This document shows, in pieces, positions 20,449 through 59,838 of a stretch of DNA of 64,000 nucleotides; the stretch's first letter is position 1; every line of letters begins with the position of its first letter. This DNA comes from Sandaracinobacteroides hominis (GTDB lineage Bacteria; Pseudomonadota; Alphaproteobacteria; Sphingomonadales; Sphingomonadaceae). The notes below the pieces were generated by a model. The model worked only from the letters and a program-made list of their open reading frames with translations. It was not told where the DNA came from and did not search any database. The position numbers and the translations under genes were made by a program. The DNA is taken from the NCBI RefSeq assembly GCF_016464365.1, contig NZ_JADCUC010000001.1, forward strand, positions 62,001 to 126,000. The letters are read 5' to 3'.

Positions 20449-22521
<2,073 letters not shown>

Positions 22522-33729: not shown

Positions 33730-35079
33730 ATGGCGACTGCCGCCGATACGCTTGCCCAGAATCTGAGTTTCGCCAACTTCTCCAAGGCGACCGAACTCAA
33801 GAAGCGCCTGTGGTTCACCATCGGCGCGCTCATCGTCTTCCGCCTCTGTTCGTTCGTGCCGCTGCCCGGCATCGACCCGCAGGCACTTTCCCAGCTGTTC
33901 AATCAGACATCGGGCGGCATGCTCGATTTCTTCAACATGTTCTCGGGCGGCGCGCTGGAGCGGATGTCGATCATCGCGCTCGGCATCATGCCCTACATCA
34001 CCGCCTCCATCGTCGTGCAGCTGATGGGCTCGATCTACGAACCCTGGAAGGCACTGAAGAAAGAAGGCGAGAGCGGCCGCAAGAAGCTGAACCAGTACAC
34101 CCGGTTCGGCACCGTCGTGCTCACCATCTTCCAGGGCTATTCGATCGCCGTCGGCCTCGAGGCCTGGGGTTCCGGCAACGGTATAGCGGCCGTGATCGAT
34201 CCGGGCTGGTTCTTCCGCATTTCCACCATCATCACCCTCTTGGGCGGCACGCTGTTCCTGATGTGGCTGGGCGAACAGATCACCAGCCGCGGCATCGGCA
34301 ACGGTATCTCGCTCATCATCATGGCCGGCATCGTCGCACAGATCCCGCGGGCACTCGGCGGCCTGTTCGAGCAGGGCCGCACCGGCGCCGTCTCTGCCGG
34401 CTTCATCATCACCATCATCGTTCTTGGCCTCGCGGTCGTCGCTTTCATCTGCCTGATGGAGCGGGCGCAGCGGCGGATTCCGATCCAGTATCCCAAGCGC
34501 CAGGTGGGCAACCGCATGTTCCAGGGCGACAGCTCGCACCTGCCGCTGAAGCTGAACACGCCGGGCGTCATCCCGCCGATCCTCGCCTCGTCGCTGTTGC
34601 TGATGCCGCTGACCTTTGCCCAGTTCATGGGACAGAGCGGTGGCCCGGACTGGCTGCTTACGATCACCACGGCGCTGCAGCATGGCGCACCGCTCTATAT
34701 GCTGCTGTACGCCGGCGGCATCATCTTCTTCAGCTTCTTCTACACGGCCATCGTCTTCAACCCCGAAGAAACGGCTGAAAACCTGAAAAAGCAGGGTGGC
34801 TTCGTTCCCGGCATCCGCCCGGGCGAGAAGACCGCGCAGTATCTGGATCATGTGCTTACCCGGATCACGGTGATCGGTGCGGCTTACCTGACTCTGGTCT
34901 GCCTGATGCCGGAATTCCTGATCAGCCAGATGGCGGTGCCCTTCTATCTGGGCGGCACCTCGCTGCTGATCGTCGTCAACGTGACAATGGATACCGTGGC
35001 GCAGATTCAGGGCCATATGCTGGCCCACCAGTATGAGGGCCTCATCAAGAAGGCGAAGCTAAGGGGAGGGCGGCGTTGA
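33730..35079 (+). CDS. secY: SecY, channel subunit of the preprotein translocase
   Basis: SecY (449 aa), the ten-helix channel of the SecYEG translocon. Hydrophobic helices are evident throughout, for example TIGALIVFRLCSFVPLPGID (TM1) and ISLIIMAGIVAQIP. The cytoplasmic loop YPKRQVGNRMFQGDSSHLPL and the GVIPPILASSLLLMP segment are conserved. Position after rplO is canonical. The stop overlaps the adk start. Confidence 0.98.
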   Translation: MATAADTLAQNLSFANFSKATELKKRLWFTIGALIVFRLCSFVPLPGIDPQALSQLFNQTSGGMLDFFNMFSGGALERMSIIALGIMPYITASIVVQLMGSIYEPWKALKKEGESGRKKLNQYTRFGTVVLTIFQGYSIAVGLEAWGSGNGIAAVIDPGWFFRISTIITLLGGTLFLMWLGEQITSRGIGNGISLIIMAGIVAQIPRALGGLFEQGRTGAVSAGFIITIIVLGLAVVAFICLMERAQRRIPIQYPKRQVGNRMFQGDSSHLPLKLNTPGVIPPILASSLLLMPLTFAQFMGQSGGPDWLLTITTALQHGAPLYMLLYAGGIIFFSFFYTAIVFNPEETAENLKKQGGFVPGIRPGEKTAQYLDHVLTRITVIGAAYLTLVCLMPEFLISQMAVPFYLGGTSLLIVVNVTMDTVAQIQGHMLAHQYEGLIKKAKLRGGRR

Positions 35080-36919: not shown

Positions 36920-37972
36920 GTGTCAGCAGCCTATGCGAAGAACTGGCAGGAACTGAAGAAGCCGAACGCCCTGGACGTGAAGACCGGCGGAACGGCAAGC
37001 AAGAAGCAATTTGTGGCAGAACCGCTCGAGCGTGGTTTCGGCCTCACCCTTGGCAACTCGCTGCGGCGGGTTCTCCTGTCGAGCCTGCAGGGCGCGGCAG
37101 TGACGGCCATCAAGATCGATGGCGCGCTGCACGAGTTCTCCTCGCTGCTCGGCGTTCGCGAAGACGTGACCGACATTGTCCTCAACGTGAAGCAGATCGT
37201 GGTGAAGATGCAGGGCGACCAGCCCAAGCGTCTGTCGCTGTCGGCTTCCGGCCCCGGCGAAGTCACCGCCGGGCAGATCGCCGTCACCGGCGACATCGAG
37301 ATTTCCAACCCGGATCTCGTCATCTGCACGCTGGACGAAGGCGCGACGTTCAACATGGAGCTGACCGTTCAGGCCGGCAAGGGCTATGTCCCCGCTGCGC
37401 AGAACCGTCCGGCAGATGCACCGATCGGGCTGATCCCCGTCGACGCACTGTTCTCGCCGGTGCGTCAGGTCGCCTACAAGGTCGAACCGACCCGCGTCGG
37501 CCAGGACCTCGATTACGACAAGCTGACGCTGACGGTGGAAACCGACGGCTCGGTGAACCCTGAGGACGCTGTCGGCTATGCCGCCCGCATTCTGCAGGAC
37601 CAGCTGCAGCTGTTCATCAACTTCGAAGAGCCGGCAGCCCGCCCGGTGGCAGCTGCCCCCGTGGCCGGCGGCGTCGCGGAAGAAGCTCCGACCGACGTGA
37701 TGATGAACCGCAACCTCCTGAAGAAGGTGGACGAGCTGGAATTGTCGGTTCGGTCGGCGAACTGCCTGAAGAACGACAACATTATCTATATCGGCGACCT
37801 GGTGCAGAAGTCGGAACCGGAAATGCTCCGCACCCCGAACTTCGGCCGCAAGTCTCTCAACGAGATCAAGGAAGTTCTCGCTTCCATGGGCCTGCGCCTG
37901 GGCATGGATATCCCGGGCTGGCCGCCGGAAAACATCGAAGATCTTGCCAAGAAGCTTGAGCAGGAATTCTAA
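36920..37972 (+). CDS. rpoA: RNA polymerase alpha subunit
   Basis: RpoA (350 aa) nucleates RNA polymerase assembly (N-terminal domain) and contacts activators and UP elements (C-terminal domain). The dimerisation segment [21 protein letters not shown]-type sequence lies near residues 40-60; the CTD has [13 protein letters not shown] and [19 protein letters not shown]. The start is GTG at 36920 (AAAGG upstream). The length is normal for alphaproteobacteria. Confidence 0.97.
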
Positions 37973-49877: not shown

Positions 49878-51233
49878 ATGGCCGGGGGCACGCCTCGTAT
49901 CGTCATTCTGGGGCGGCCGAATGTCGGCAAGTCGACGCTGTTCAACCGGCTCGTCGGCAAGAAGCTTGCGCTGGTCGACGATCAGCCGGGCGTGACGCGT
50001 GATCGGCGGGAAGGCAAGGGGCAGCTGTTCGACCTCGAGTTCACCGTGATCGATACGGCGGGTCTCGAGGAAGCCGAAGCTGGCAGCCTCTCCGATCGGA
50101 TGCGCAGCCAGTCGCGCGCGGCGCTCGATGGCGCGACGGCCGCGCTCTACGTGCTGGACGTGCGCGCCGGCCTCACCGAAGCCGACCGCCATTTCGCCCG
50201 CTGGCTGCGGCAGGAAGCGCCGGTGCCGATCATCCCCGTCGCCAACAAGTGCGAGGGCAAGGCCGCAGAGGCTGGGCTGATGGAAATGTTCGAGCTGGGT
50301 CTGGGCGATCCCGTTCCGCTGTCGGCCGAACATGGCGAGGGCCTCGCTGACCTGTTCGAGGCGCTCGCGCCGCTCATCCCCGAGCCGGGCGACGAACCGG
50401 AAGAGGTCGAGGGGGAAGACGAGGAAGGGCCGCTGAAGCTCGCCATCGTCGGCCGCCCCAACGCGGGAAAATCCACCCTCATCAACAAGCTGCTGGGCGA
50501 AAACCGGCTGTTGACCGGGCCAGAGGCCGGAATCACCCGAGATTCCATCGCCATCCAGTGGGAATGGCAGGGTCGCCCGGTCGAGCTGATCGATACTGCC
50601 GGCATGCGCCGCAAGGCGAAGGTGGTGGACAAGCTCGAGAAGCTGGCGGTGGCAGACGCCCGGCACGCCGTTGATTTTGCCGAAGTCATCGTGCTGCTGC
50701 TGGATGCGACGCTCGGCCTGGAGGCGCAGGATCTGCGCATTGCCGACATGGTGCTGCAGGAAGGCCGCGCCCTGATCGTCGCGATCAACAAATGGGATTC
50801 CGCCGAAGACCAGAGCCGCCTGTTCAACGGCATCAAGAAGGCGCTGGACGAGGGGCTGGCGCAGGTGAAGGGCGTGCCGCTGCTGACGGTATCCGCGCTA
50901 ACCGGCAAGGGGCTGGACACGCTGATGCAGGTCGCCTTCGAAACCCGCGAGCGCTGGAGCCGCCGGGTGCCCACCTCGGCGTTGAACCGCTGGTTCGAGC
51001 ATGCGCTGGATCGCAATCCGCCGCCGGCGCCGGGCGGCCGCCGCATCAAGATGCGCTACATCACCCAGGCGCGGAACCGGCCGCCGACCTTCATCGTCTT
51101 CGGCACCCGGCTCGACGAGCTTCCGGAAAGCTACAACCGCTATCTGGTGAACAGCCTGCGCGACGATCTCGACCTGAAGGGTCTTCCCATCCGCATCAAC
51201 ATGCGGTCGCGGAAAAACCCGTTCGATACGTGA
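49878..51233 (+). CDS. der: Der (EngA), ribosome assembly GTPase with two G domains
   Basis: Der (451 aa) is needed for 50S subunit maturation. Two tandem G domains: GRPNVGKSTLFNRL near residue 13 with DTAGLEEAE, and GRPNAGKSTLINKL near 190 with DTAGMRRKAKV, then NKWDS, followed by a KH-like domain (RRIKMRYITQARNRPPTF). An acidic linker (EPEEVEGEDEEG) separates the G domains. It starts 3 nt after bamB and its stop overlaps the ligase start. Confidence 0.97.
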   Translation: MAGGTPRIVILGRPNVGKSTLFNRLVGKKLALVDDQPGVTRDRREGKGQLFDLEFTVIDTAGLEEAEAGSLSDRMRSQSRAALDGATAALYVLDVRAGLTEADRHFARWLRQEAPVPIIPVANKCEGKAAEAGLMEMFELGLGDPVPLSAEHGEGLADLFEALAPLIPEPGDEPEEVEGEDEEGPLKLAIVGRPNAGKSTLINKLLGENRLLTGPEAGITRDSIAIQWEWQGRPVELIDTAGMRRKAKVVDKLEKLAVADARHAVDFAEVIVLLLDATLGLEAQDLRIADMVLQEGRALIVAINKWDSAEDQSRLFNGIKKALDEGLAQVKGVPLLTVSALTGKGLDTLMQVAFETRERWSRRVPTSALNRWFEHALDRNPPPAPGGRRIKMRYITQARNRPPTFIVFGTRLDELPESYNRYLVNSLRDDLDLKGLPIRINMRSRKNPFDT

Positions 51234-52717
51234 TGCAGCGGCTGCACGACCTGCTTGAGGCGGGGCCGGCCGATGCCGTTGCACTGGTGGAGCGCGACCG
51301 GCGACTGACCTATGGCGAGCTGCGCGCCGAAGTCGCGGCGGTTGCCGCCGGGCTGCAGCAACGGGTGCATCCAGGTGACCGTGTCGCGATATGGCTGCCC
51401 AAGAGCCTGGAATGTGTGGTGCTGCTGTTCGCGATTTCCCGCGCGGGGGCGGTGGCGGTGCCGGTAAACCCGGTGCTGCGCGGGCAGCAGTTGCTGCACA
51501 TCCTCGCGGACTCCCAGGCCGCCCTGCTGGTCACGCACCGGATGCGCGGGGCGACGCTGACGGATGCACCATGCCCGGTGCTGCTGCTGGAGGACGGCTG
51601 GCAGGATCTGCGCAGCGTCGCGCCAGGCGAGGCCGTGGCGGGCGGCGAGCTGGCGGCGCTCCTCTACACCTCCGGCTCCACCGGGCGGCCAAAGGGCGTC
51701 ATGGTCACCCACGCAAATCTGCTGACGGGCGCCCGAAGCGTCGCCGGCTATCTGGGAACAGCGGCTGACGACCGGGTGCTGTCCGTCCTGCCGCTCAGCT
51801 TCGATTTCGGCTTCTCGCAGGTGACGACCGCGTTCCTGAAGGGCGCTTCCGTGGTGCTGCTGGACTATCTGACGCCGCGCGACGTGGTGCAGGCCTGCGC
51901 CCGCCACGGCATCACCCAGCTTGCCGCCGTGCCGCCGCTCTGGGTGCAGCTGACCGGTCTCGATTGGCCGGCAGAGGCTATTTCCTCGATGCGGACTCTG
52001 TCCAACAGCGGCGGCCGCCTGCCGGTGCCGACGGTGAAGGCGCTGCGGGCGCTGTTTCCCAACGCGCGGCTGCACCTGATGTACGGCCTCACCGAGGCCT
52101 TTCGTTCCACGACACTTCCGCCGGAACTCGCCGACAGCCATCCCTCCAGCATTGGCCGCGCCATCCCGGACGTGGAGGTGCTGGTGATCCGCCCGGACGG
52201 ACGCGAGGCGCCTGACGGCGTCGCCGGCGAGCTGGTGCATGCAGGGCCGCTGGTGACGCAGGGCTATTGGCGCGATCCCGAACGCACGGCACAGCGGTTC
52301 AGACCGGCGCCGGAAACGTCGCGTTATGGCGGCATCGCCGTCTGGTCGGGCGACAAGGTGGTGCGCGATGCCGACGGGCTTCTCACATTCGTTGGCCGCG
52401 AGGACGAGACCATCAAGACCATGGGCACGCGCGTATCGCCGACCGAGATCGAGGAGCTGGCGCACCTGAGCGGCGCGGTCTTGCAGGCGGTGGCGCTTGG
52501 CATACCCGACGAAATGGCCGGCCAGCGCATCCGGCTGGTCGCAAGCGCCGCCGAGGGGCTGAGCGAGGCCGAGGCCGAGGTGCGGCTGGTGGCCTGGTTC
52601 CGCAAGGAGGCTGCCCCCTATATGCAGCCCGCCGGCATCGTCTGGCTGGACGCGCTGCCGCATTCGGCAAACGGGAAGCTGGATCGGGCGGCGCTCAGGG
52701 ACAGGTTCGGGCGTTGA
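51233..52717 (+). CDS. acyl-CoA ligase (AMP-forming), exosortase A-associated type
   Basis: A 494-aa ANL-superfamily adenylating enzyme. The P-loop-like LLYTSGSTGRPKGVMVTHAN lies near residue 145, MYGLTEAFRST near 285 and GWRxxG-like SGDKVVRDADGLLTFVGRED near 375; PHSANGKLDRAAL carries the catalytic lysine. MQRLHDLLEAGPADAVALV and the length match the ligase found with exosortase A (TIGR03098 type). In this family the product is inferred to serve exopolysaccharide/PEP-CTERM systems; the substrate is unknown. The start overlaps the der stop (TGATG). Confidence 0.87.
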   Translation: MQRLHDLLEAGPADAVALVERDRRLTYGELRAEVAAVAAGLQQRVHPGDRVAIWLPKSLECVVLLFAISRAGAVAVPVNPVLRGQQLLHILADSQAALLVTHRMRGATLTDAPCPVLLLEDGWQDLRSVAPGEAVAGGELAALLYTSGSTGRPKGVMVTHANLLTGARSVAGYLGTAADDRVLSVLPLSFDFGFSQVTTAFLKGASVVLLDYLTPRDVVQACARHGITQLAAVPPLWVQLTGLDWPAEAISSMRTLSNSGGRLPVPTVKALRALFPNARLHLMYGLTEAFRSTTLPPELADSHPSSIGRAIPDVEVLVIRPDGREAPDGVAGELVHAGPLVTQGYWRDPERTAQRFRPAPETSRYGGIAVWSGDKVVRDADGLLTFVGREDETIKTMGTRVSPTEIEELAHLSGAVLQAVALGIPDEMAGQRIRLVASAAEGLSEAEAEVRLVAWFRKEAAPYMQPAGIVWLDALPHSANGKLDRAALRDRFGR

Positions 52718-53952
52718 GCGAGGCGGCTGCTGGCGGGGAGCGGGTGCCAGCCGGATTCTGTCGGGACGGCGATGGGCGGTTGTTGCTGGCCGGAAGGCCT
52801 GCCGCAGAGCTGGTCGCCGCAGCCGGCGATACGCCCCTGTTCGTCTATGTCGCCGGGCTGTTGCAGACCCGCGTTGCGGCGTTCCGGGCGGCCATGCCTG
52901 GCGACATACACCTCCACTATGCCGTGAAGGCGAACCCGTTCCCACCGCTGATGGCGCATATGACCGGGTTGGTGGACGGCTTCGACATTGCCTCTGCCGG
53001 CGAAATGGCGAAGGCGCTGGAGGCGGGGATGCCGGCCGATCGGATCAGCTTCGCGGGGCCGGGAAAGCGCGACCGCGAGCTGCAGGCCGCGATAGAGGCC
53101 GGGGTCACGCTCAACATCGAATCCGAAGGCGAGCTGGGGCGTGCAGGCGCCATCGCAGAAGCGCTTGGCAAGACGGCCCGTGTGGCGCTGCGGGTGAATC
53201 CGCCGTTCCAGCTGAAGGGCTCCGGCATGAAGATGGGCGGCAACGCCGCACCTTTCGGTGTCGATGCAGCCATGGCCCCGCCGCTCCTGCGGCGAATGCA
53301 GCAGGCGCCCTTCGAGCTGCGGGGGCTGCACGTCTTTGCCGGGTCGCAGGCACTTTCGGCGCCGGCCATCCTCGAAGCACAGGCGGCAACGGTCGTGCTG
53401 GCCGACGAACTGTCGCGTGAGGCCGGCGTGGAGCTGCCCTTTGTCAATCTGGGGGGCGGCTTCGGCGTGCCCTATTTCCCCGGCGACCGCGAGCTCGATC
53501 TGGCCGAGCTGGGCGATGGGCTGACTGCTATTCTCGCCGGCCGAGCCCCGACACTGCGCAACGCCCGGTTCGCGCTGGAGCTTGGACGCTGGCTCGTCGC
53601 GGAGGCGGGAGTCTATCTCTGCCGGATCGTCGACCGGAAACGCTCGGGTGGCGAGACCTTCCTCGTCACCGATGGCGGCCTGCACCACCAGCTGGCGGCA
53701 ACCGGCAATTTCGGCACGGTGATCCGGCGCAACTATCCGGTGGTGAACGCAAGCAGGGGAGGGCCGGCTGCGGAAACCGCGTCGGTGGTCGGTTGCCTGT
53801 GCACGCCGCTCGATCGGCTCGCCGACAAGGTCGAATGGCCGCAATCGGAAATAGGGGATCTTGTCGCGGTTTTCATGGCCGGGGCCTATGGCCGCTCTGC
53901 CAGCCCGGAAGCCTTCCTGGGGCATCCACCCGCGCTGGAAATATTGGTCTAG
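52714..53952 (+). CDS. pyridoxal-dependent decarboxylase, exosortase A-associated type
   Basis: A 412-aa fold-type III (alanine racemase-like) PLP enzyme related to diaminopimelate/ornithine decarboxylase. The PLP lysine is in HLHYAVKANPFPPL near residue 70; NLGGGFGVPYFPGD is the phosphate-binding Gly stretch; CTPLDRLAD holds the Cys-Asp pair of the dimeric active site. This is the TIGR03099-type enzyme that accompanies the ligase. The start is TTG at 52714 overlapping the ligase stop; GTG 52744, with GGGGAG upstream, is a reasonable alternative. Confidence 0.87.
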   Translation: MSEAAAGGERVPAGFCRDGDGRLLLAGRPAAELVAAAGDTPLFVYVAGLLQTRVAAFRAAMPGDIHLHYAVKANPFPPLMAHMTGLVDGFDIASAGEMAKALEAGMPADRISFAGPGKRDRELQAAIEAGVTLNIESEGELGRAGAIAEALGKTARVALRVNPPFQLKGSGMKMGGNAAPFGVDAAMAPPLLRRMQQAPFELRGLHVFAGSQALSAPAILEAQAATVVLADELSREAGVELPFVNLGGGFGVPYFPGDRELDLAELGDGLTAILAGRAPTLRNARFALELGRWLVAEAGVYLCRIVDRKRSGGETFLVTDGGLHHQLAATGNFGTVIRRNYPVVNASRGGPAAETASVVGCLCTPLDRLADKVEWPQSEIGDLVAVFMAGAYGRSASPEAFLGHPPALEILV

Positions 53953-58053: not shown

Positions 58054-58845
58054 GTGAGTAAGGGCGGGCGGCTCGACAAGGTTGAGCAGCTCCACGCGCC
58101 CAAGGATTCGGCCAAGGTCGAGAAAGCGCTGCAGTACCGGCTGTCGCAGATCCTGATTGCCTATCATCGTCAGAAGCGGCGGGCGATCATCCTGCTGGAA
58201 GGCTGGGACGCCGCCGGCAAGGGTGGGCTGATCAAGCGGCTGACATCCGAACTGGACCCGAGATTTTTCGAAGTGGTGCCGATTGCTGCGCCGAACGCAG
58301 TGGAGCGCGAGCAGCATTACATGGTGCGCTTTGCCCAGAGCCTGCCGGCGCGTGGGAACTGGACGATTTTCGATCGCAGCTGGTATGGCCGGGTGCTGGT
58401 GGAGCGGGTGGAGGGTTTTGCCACCCGCGACGAGTGGAAGCGCGCCTATGACGAGATCAACGCCGTCGAGCAGGCGCAGGTGGCCGACGGCACCCGACTG
58501 GTGAAGCTGTTCCTGCATACGACGCAGGAAGAGCAGGACGAGCGGCTGATCGACCGGCTGGAGCAGCCTTGGAAGCGCTGGAAGGTGAGCGCCGAGGATT
58601 TCCGTAATCGATCGCGGCGGGCGGACTATCTGGAAGCCTATGAGGACATGTTCGAGAAGACGGACACCAAGCATGCGCCCTGGCACCTGATCGGGGCGAA
58701 CCACAAGAAACATGCCCGGATTGCGGGCTTGCAGATCATCGCCGATGTGCTGGCCGAGGATGTGGAGCTGAAGGATCCGGAGCTGGACTCGGATTTGCGC
58801 AAGCTGGCCGAAGAGGAATTGGGGATCAGGCTCGACCCGCAGTGA
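58054..58845 (+). CDS. ppk2: polyphosphate kinase 2 family protein
   Basis: A 263-aa kinase using polyphosphate to phosphorylate nucleotides. Walker A is LLEGWDAAGKGGLIKRL near residue 50 and the lid/Walker B region is FDRSWYGRVLVERVEGF near 108; VKLFLHTTQEEQ and YLEAYEDMFEKTDT follow. It is a single-domain enzyme, which in this family favours NDP (or GDP) as acceptor, but the acceptor cannot be told from sequence. The start is GTG at 58054. The gene-free 171 nt after it contain the parS-like site. Confidence 0.9.
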   Translation: MSKGGRLDKVEQLHAPKDSAKVEKALQYRLSQILIAYHRQKRRAIILLEGWDAAGKGGLIKRLTSELDPRFFEVVPIAAPNAVEREQHYMVRFAQSLPARGNWTIFDRSWYGRVLVERVEGFATRDEWKRAYDEINAVEQAQVADGTRLVKLFLHTTQEEQDERLIDRLEQPWKRWKVSAEDFRNRSRRADYLEAYEDMFEKTDTKHAPWHLIGANHKKHARIAGLQIIADVLAEDVELKDPELDSDLRKLAEEELGIRLDPQ

Positions 58846-58860
58846 GATAACCAAATTGGT

Positions 58861-58876
58861 TGTTCCACGTGGAACA
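58861..58876. other. parS-like ParB-binding palindrome
   Basis: TGTTCCACGTGGAACA is a perfect 16-bp palindrome matching the bacterial parS consensus TGTTNCACGTGNAACA, intergenic and in an AT-rich patch. A second inverted repeat (AACCAA-A-TTGGTT, 58849-58861) abuts it, and a half-site TGTTCCACG lies at 58940-58948. parS sites mark the origin-proximal segregation region in alphaproteobacteria. parAB are not in this window. Confidence 0.8.
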
Positions 58877-59016
58877 ATTCCTACAGATTCACTCCTTTTT
58901 CGTTGTTTTTCCTGGTGTTGGGTTTAGCCCCGTTGGATTTGTTCCACGGTTATTTGCATCTTTCGCGTGTGCTTTGGCGGCGCAAATATGGTGTCCTGGG
59001 GTTTGTCTAAACTGCC

Positions 59017-59655
59017 CTAGACTAGCCGGCAGCGTGTGAGCTGGAATGGTCGTGCAAGCTTCGCCTTCTTCAGCGCCTGAACCACCTCATCAGAGAAGAA
59101 ATGCTGCGAGATCATTTCGCCGGCTGTCCAGATCTTGAGGGCTCCCGCAGCCTCGCGTGAAACAGCCAGGTCGTCTGTCTTCGCACTGTGAGCGGAGTAG
59201 GTACGATGCATGCTGTCGTACCGCAGGTTCTGAGACTGCTCCGGCACGATCGCCGTCAACCGAGGCGTGATATGAAACTGGAAGTAGCGCTTTTCCGTCC
59301 GGCGCTGACGGTCCGAAAAGAAGACTTCCGTCGGCACTAACCTGGATGGACCGATGTCGATCCCGCTCAGCGCCTCTACAACCGCCGCAGACACCAGTGG
59401 CGCAACGGTTCCGGTGATGACATCCCGCTCCTTTGCCAACCGCTTGTCGCTCCAGTCGTCATCAGCCCAAATCATCCTTGGAAACTCGTCCGCAGGCCAT
59501 GGGTCCCCTCTCCCCGCAATTTGAACAAACTCGCTCCAGCGTTCGAAGCTCTTCTCCCGAATGTCATCTATGAAGCCGACAGTCGTTCGACTATCGCTCG
59601 AAAAATCCGCCATCCAGACATGATCGCTGCTCACGTCAAACTCCCTTGTCAGCAT
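59017..59655 (-). CDS. hypothetical protein, resembles the Imm11 (DUF1629) immunity family
   Basis: A 212-aa protein with no certain family. GTVAPLVSAAVVEALSGIDI, PTEVFFSD, KRYFQFHI, LKIWTAGEMISQHFFSDEVV and a final ALKKAKLARPFQLTRCRLV follow the order of Imm11-type proteins, where two 'surface/strand' modules end in a vocabulary like lvSdrl..al....l.Gv.F. No toxin gene is adjacent. I chose the ATG at 59655; the frame is open to 59832 but that part is repeat-like spacer. Its codon choice is less GC-biased than its neighbours'. Confidence 0.55.
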   Translation of the reverse strand: MLTREFDVSSDHVWMADFSSDSRTTVGFIDDIREKSFERWSEFVQIAGRGDPWPADEFPRMIWADDDWSDKRLAKERDVITGTVAPLVSAAVVEALSGIDIGPSRLVPTEVFFSDRQRRTEKRYFQFHITPRLTAIVPEQSQNLRYDSMHRTYSAHSAKTDDLAVSREAAGALKIWTAGEMISQHFFSDEVVQALKKAKLARPFQLTRCRLV

Positions 59656-59736
59656 GTTTTTGCTGCCATTTTCTGCTGACCCACGCGTATGATGGCCGTG
59701 CCGCTTCGGATGTCCAGGAAAACCGGGGCTCCGATC

Positions 59737-59754
59737 CCCCTGCCTTCGCAGGGG
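59737..59754. repeat. REP-like hairpin, second copy
   Basis: CCCCTGC-CTTC-GCAGGGG, differing only in the loop from the hairpin at 13130-13147, and followed in both places by CAGGC. Here it is embedded in a longer GC-rich element (about 59728-59776). It lies in the 218-nt gap between the Imm11-like gene and greB. Confidence 0.6.
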
Positions 59755-59838
59755 CAGGCAAGTCCGGGGTGACGGGTGGGGATGGTGGCGCTTGGCTTTA
59801 GAGGTTGGTGCGGGCGGCGCGGCTCCACCCACCCCCGG

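Follow-up and report, generated by a model that had tools for sequence, protein, structure and literature searches.

A probable ParB-loading parS site of a remote, composite kind in Sandaracinobacteroides hominis

The closest described systems are the chromosomal parS sites of Pseudomonas aeruginosa, Caulobacter and Bacillus. According to the part of PMC4368675 used here, eight of the ten parS sites of P. aeruginosa PAO1 lie within the ori domain and some lie outside it, and the highest-affinity ParB site of this species (parS2/parS3) is the same 16 bp that we describe below. Engineered parS placed far from the native sites can disturb segregation. In Caulobacter a region of about 500 kb round the native cluster tolerates a second parS cluster and mid-arm insertion is disfavoured; the same study reports some preference for the ter region (PMC5815017, cited in part). 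Attempts to make P. aeruginosa strains with parS 1 or 1.5 Mb to the right of oriC failed, while a parS shift of 650 kb was reported as harmless in V. cholerae, as was one of 400 kb in Caulobacter (both from an excerpt of PMC5098823). When an ectopic parS2 was placed opposite oriC in a parS-null P. aeruginosa strain, some phenotypes were reversed and accurate segregation was not restored (PMC4368675, again in part). With a genus in which perfect parS occurs naturally towards the terminus, the tolerance of origin-distal parS would become directly testable. Among the papers listed in our literature searches, which covered mainly open-access work, none dealt with dispersed parS in Sphingomonadales. 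Here we describe a site in Sandaracinobacteroides hominis which, judged by its sequence, is probably a parS at which ParB of the chromosomal ParABS system loads, and which belongs to a remote composite class that we find in its genus.

The window is the whole stretch of DNA that was analysed, 64 kb of contig C1 (C1:62001-126000; the contig measures 939 kb). It belongs to a draft assembly of 3.53 Mb in 21 contigs, here called G000. The features around the site are the following.

58054-58845, + strand: ppk2 (polyphosphate kinase 2; PF03976, E 1.6e-73), directly upstream of parS
58849-58861, no strand: abutting palindrome AACCAAATTGGTT, of the ACC[A/G]NNNYGGT module, read directly; putative operator of a second protein
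58861-58876, no strand: parS palindrome TGTTCCACGTGGAACA, a predicted ParB site; perfect palindrome fitting the consensus TGTTNCACGTGNAACA
58868-58886, no strand: inner arm CGTGGAACAATTCCTACAG of a large imperfect inverted repeat, pairing with 58931-58948 in the predicted fold
58879-58885, + strand: heptamer TCCTACA, of the TCC[A/T]ACA module, on the opposite flank of parS from AACCAAATTGGTT
58931-58948, no strand: outer arm CGTTGGATTTGTTCCACG, which contains the half-parS TGTTCCACG at 58940-58948
59017-59832, - strand: ORF with weak Imm11 similarity (PF07791, E 1.2e-5)

As the last ORF faces ppk2 from the opposite strand, the parS site sits between convergent genes. It is the single match to the consensus in the window, and it is still the only one when up to two mismatches are allowed (0.05 expected; at least one such match was seen in 5 of 100 shuffled windows). 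On these points the preliminary description holds: it had reported a perfect fit to the ParB consensus, an intergenic position (ppk2 stops at 58845, and the convergent ORF has its 3' end at 59017), no other full match in the window, and an adjacent inverted repeat and a half-site, which are both present and recur in related elements.

The ORF downstream of parS, whose weak similarity is to an immunity protein, has a lowered third-position GC and gave no match in a search of NCBIfam. Elsewhere in the window, a pyridoxal-dependent decarboxylase of the exosortase A system (TIGR03099), which follows an ORF resembling by eye an AMP-dependent ligase, suggests an exosortase/PEP-CTERM locus at 50792-53952.

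The genome of S. hominis contains 13 perfect copies of the 16-bp site, and the reversed control has none. Allowing up to three mismatches adds one site with one mismatch, none with two and ten with three, where the reversed control gives nine. Five of the perfect copies form a cluster within about 5 kb beside parB on contig C16, where Pfam identifies ParB (N, HTH and C domains), ParA, GidB, GidA and MnmE. Cognate chromosomal ParA and ParB are encoded in this genome, next to parS copies of identical sequence. The window site agrees at all 16 positions with these parAB-proximal sites, some of which overlap the gidA and gidB frames, and this identity gives good support to the earlier assignment as a ParB site of the parS type. 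The other eight perfect copies, the window site included, are found at six places away from parAB.

C1:120861, perfect parS, the window site 58861-58876
C1:358279 and C1:358324, pair of perfect parS
C12:436867 (L037:5868-5883), perfect parS by dnaN
C15:285383, perfect parS
C17:263013 and C17:263050, pair of perfect parS
C19:14844, perfect parS

At the L037 site the parS lies just upstream of, or overlaps, the start of dnaN, the exact start of which is unsettled, and a divergent ORF nearby shows similarity to NA37, a nucleoid-associated protein. The preliminary description had proposed to count the site over the genome together with its distance to parAB, and held that many scattered copies would refute its reading. 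The count is the 13 given above. For the distance, we infer a value with a strict minimum of about 0.2 Mb, because parAB and the window site are on different contigs of a draft assembly. The copies are in part scattered, with 8 of 13 away from parAB, but their flanks are shared and some of their places are conserved.

Perfect sites number 13, 13, 11, 9, 6 and 5 in the six genus genomes, and every one of these 57 is the same 16 bp, the C/G variant. We compared the surroundings of all of them: 29 are in parAB clusters and 28 are remote, with between one and eight remote sites per genome. Members of the genus include Sandaracinobacteroides sayramensis RS1-74 (G001), a Sphingomonadales MAG (G002) and Sandaracinobacter neustonicus PAMC 28131 (G003). 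The other 53 relatives have from zero to four sites per genome; among the matches listed for them, one site in G018 is 51 kb from its pair, and the sites of G042 and of G054 are on different small contigs. In G029, from another genus of the same family, two variant parS matches (C7:112141 and 1393542) lie far from its parS pair.

A site by ppk2 is present in four of the five genus genomes with ppk2, S. hominis included; the copy in G002 has one mismatch, G004 has none, and ppk2 was not found in G005. At three further remote places the neighbouring ORFs are common to different species.

Two modules are shared by the flanks of many remote sites, the palindrome AACCANNNTGGTT and the heptamer TCC[A/T]ACA. 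The palindrome, ACC[A/G]NNNYGGT, is found within 3 bp of 13 of the 28 remote sites compared with none of the 29 parAB-cluster sites, and the heptamer within 5 bp of 19 of 28 compared with 0 of 29. Both modules occur together at 12 of the 28, and by the same rule 15 remote sites have no palindrome and nine no heptamer. The Fisher values, 1.5e-5 for the palindrome and 1.1e-8 for the heptamer, are descriptive, since the modules were defined from the same sites. The background is about 0.1% of random positions, and at 100-400 bp from the sites the modules occur at 1 and 6 of 3306. Further, 4 of the 17 elements examined (the window element, L040, L042 and L134) have a perfect half-parS at a distance of 67-72 bp from parS, always in the same orientation; the remaining 13 show none in the 120 bp on that side, also when one mismatch is allowed.

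In G004 and G005 the flank has diverged. Most remote sites of G005, and one of the two in G004, have A-run/T-run flanks. A 36-bp perfect palindrome centred on parS is seen at L064:6756-6791 in G004. The exact composite pattern, which does not cover the form seen in G004 and G005, matched nine stretches in 84,980 species genomes (a set from which S. hominis itself may be absent), and all nine come from G001, G002 and G003.

A joint alignment of 16 elements was poor because the spacing varies, and a subset of ten sequences was used to build a flank-block model from which parS was excluded. The model was scored on 150 of the 322-673 first-look candidates per genome, and it missed several known elements, the one in the window included. 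At E<0.01 it gave 15 matches, ten of them training copies; these come from four of the six genus genomes, and G004 and G005 have none. All five non-training matches adjoin parS (one perfect, three with one mismatch and one with three). Four weaker matches (E 0.2-0.6) were not counted; three of these have no parS in the stretch viewed. Among the 150 candidates scored per genome, with a model that misses known elements, no copy of a repeat independent of parS was found at E<0.01.

The remote sites are between convergent genes more often than expected. Out of 25 remote places, 14 are between convergent genes, seven between genes on the same strand, three between divergent genes and one inside a called ORF; for comparison, 43 of 232 gaps are convergent in those stretches of the S. 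hominis genome that were sampled. This count, made with a simple gene caller, omits L050, which is close to the end of its contig, and the second site of each of two pairs, and it treats orthologous places separately. When each orthologous place is counted once (a manual count), the convergent ones are 9 or 10 out of 18, since one place differs between species; we used 10.

Flanks from one genome resemble each other more than flanks of orthologous places do: the mean z of flank similarity is 4.6 within genomes (68 pairs), 2.1 between orthologous places (14 pairs) and 1.9 for the 324 other pairs. The within-genome excess is driven most by G003, in which four copies score 12-16 with each other; for the G003 copy by ppk2, the scores are 4.6 and 8.8 against its two perfect orthologs and 0.9 against the one carrying a mismatch. 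This pattern of flank similarity suggests that the flanks may be homogenised or re-copied within genomes, and it keeps alive an explanation by mobile repeats.

The remote sites would then be a small repeat or mobile element, MITE- or REP-like, that has captured a parS and is spreading or being homogenised in each genome, with parS as cargo or as an aid to retention. What also fits such an element, besides the flank similarity, is that 4 of the 17 elements are built as inverted repeats whose arms contain a half-parS. However, perfect copies are few, one to eight remote sites per genome, several places are common to different species, and the Y1 transposase (PF01797), the only family tested, is absent from five of the six genomes. 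A Y1 (RAYT) transposase is the associate of REP/REPIN elements, and the S. hominis genome has one match at 24.4 bits against a cut-off of 23. We regard the mobile repeat as unlikely. A viral or plasmid origin was rejected: two patterns of the exact composite had no match in IMG/VR viral contigs, and blastn of the window element against plasmids gave none either.

For the position of the window site on the chromosome we use the dif core and the KOPS-type motif GGGNAGGG, both taken over from E. coli and presumed to be valid here. The E. coli dif core has one dif-like match in the S. hominis genome, at C1:524207. A degenerate form of dif has a single match in each of 24 genomes (S. hominis included) and none in the other 35 of the 59; within the genus it is found in S. 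hominis and G004 only. In G020, a single contig of 2.7 Mb, the degenerate match is 1.38 Mb from parS. The forward/reverse counts of KOPS in samples of C1 are 49/4 before the dif sample, 6/4 inside it and 9/25 after it (Fisher 1.6e-10), and 12/1 in the window. On other contigs they are weak or mixed: 17/9 on C12, 2/11 on C15, 9/3 on C17 and 5/6 on C19. The GC skew is noisy, without a clean flip at dif, and too noisy for mapping the arms.

The dif-like match and the KOPS flip on C1 place the window parS 403 kb from the likely terminus, and the pair at C1:358 kb is 166 kb from the dif-like site. Three of the eight remote perfect copies are on this dif-carrying contig, and the window parS appears to be on the terminus side of the chromosome. 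In the window, fusA (20449-22521), secY (33730-35079) and rpoA (36920-37972), identified by NCBIfam, are on the + strand and co-directional with KOPS, yet the dif-like site is on C1. These three genes are often nearer the origin, which speaks against a place on the terminus side.

Synteny of ppk2 was compared in 13 relatives from other genera or families, six of which have a ppk2 relative at 48% identity or more; matches at 38-43% were set aside as likely paralogs. In three of the six the relative is on the dif contig, at 85 kb (G022), 342 kb (G006) and 402 kb (G029) from dif. In G029 it is nearer parS (167 kb) than dif, which also speaks against an origin-distal place.

The preliminary description had read the window site as an ordinary chromosomal parS marking the origin-proximal segregation domain, in agreement with a switch of the skew on its left side. 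The GC skew does change, noisily, around 50 kb, but dif and KOPS lend no support to reading this change as an origin signal. The site is a perfect parS in a genome that has parAB with a normal parS cluster, and around parAB on C16 the KOPS counts, 6/3 to the left and 0/4 from parAB on, are few and run opposite to the prediction for an origin; these observations, with the indirect distance to parAB, favour the origin-domain reading. However, parAB is on C16, and the contig of the window carries the dif-like site, 403 kb away, with the strong KOPS flip. An origin-domain location, typical of chromosomal parS and not strictly defining, is thus not what we find, the distance to oriC being likewise indirect. 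On the dif and KOPS evidence we reject the site as an origin marker and consider that reading very improbable.

A bidirectional transcription terminator, or RNA hairpin, with the palindrome as its stem would suit the convergent gene context and the A-run/T-run flanks in G005 and G004, and as RNA the element folds with a z of -1.98 (7 of 200 shuffles fold equally well or better). However, the exact 16 bp recurs without a covarying stem and is identical to sites that overlap the gidA/gidB frames, and no terminator was called at parS: the search for a G+C-rich hairpin with a T-run over 58600-59200 gave one match, at 58714-58728 (0.7 expected). A search of Rfam at the gathering threshold, over eight sources, found no match. 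We give the terminator very little credence. Least likely of all is an operator of another regulator with ParB-like specificity: some sites are near gene starts, as at dnaN in L037, and additional conserved motifs adjoin the site, but all 16 positions are identical to the parAB-proximal sites and 14 of the 25 places are at convergent gene ends.

We therefore prefer a ParB-loading parS of the remote composite class, a reading that builds on the sequence, number, contig position, conservation and flank association of the remote sites as observed. In its fullest form a remote element consists of a perfect or near-perfect parS with ACC[A/G]NNNYGGT on one side and TCC[A/T]ACA on the other, and a few copies have an additional inverted half-parS about 70 bp off. 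Such elements are mostly between genes, convergent ones more often than expected, and in S. hominis reach to 166 kb from dif. ParB loading is expected at the window site because TGTTCCACGTGGAACA is the parS2/parS3 sequence of P. aeruginosa; ParB would bind remote parS, close as a CTP clamp and slide away, and could recruit SMC, as at an ordinary parS.

The flank that the remote sites share hints that a gating protein may exist. Bound to the DNA next to parS, such a second protein might gate the loading of ParB or limit its spreading, and in this way an origin-distal parS might be tolerated, or used for the organisation of the arm and terminus. As distant engineered parS can harm, a gating flank would be an economical reason for the restriction of the flank to remote sites. 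More tentatively, and short of an even chance in our estimate, the genus may have a second centromere-like class, in which parS is fused to a putative operator, spread to near the terminus and kept preferentially between convergent genes, with origin-distal loading of ParB and SMC being conditional. If true, this second class would be a natural exception to the poor tolerance of distant parS in Caulobacter and P. aeruginosa.

In comparison with known systems, several likenesses and differences can be observed. REP and REPIN elements are short inverted-repeat elements, often between convergent genes and alike within a genome. The remote elements resemble them in all these respects; unlike them, they are few in copy and occur in five of six genomes without a Y1 transposase. 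With the half-parS bound by P. aeruginosa ParB they share the heptamer GTTCCAC, here in the outer arm (PMC7022226, cited in part), but in the elements described here, 4 of the 17 examined, the orientation of the half-site and its spacing from a full parS are fixed. As parS outside the cluster nearest oriC, the remote sites are like the dispersed parS5-parS10 of P. aeruginosa PAO1 (PMC4368675, the part used here) and, as far as the cited part of the source goes, the origin-distal Spo0J sites of B. subtilis. However, the six dispersed PAO1 sites have two mismatches and lower affinity (same part of PMC4368675), while the remote sites described here are perfect and share their flanks. Finally, the 16-bp palindrome, the cognate parAB and the five copies beside parAB/gidA are like those of chromosomal parS in P. 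aeruginosa (parS2/parS3), Caulobacter and Bacillus, as described in the parts of the sources cited. The difference is that here 8 of 13 perfect copies are away from parAB, three of them on the dif contig, and many remote sites have shared flank modules.
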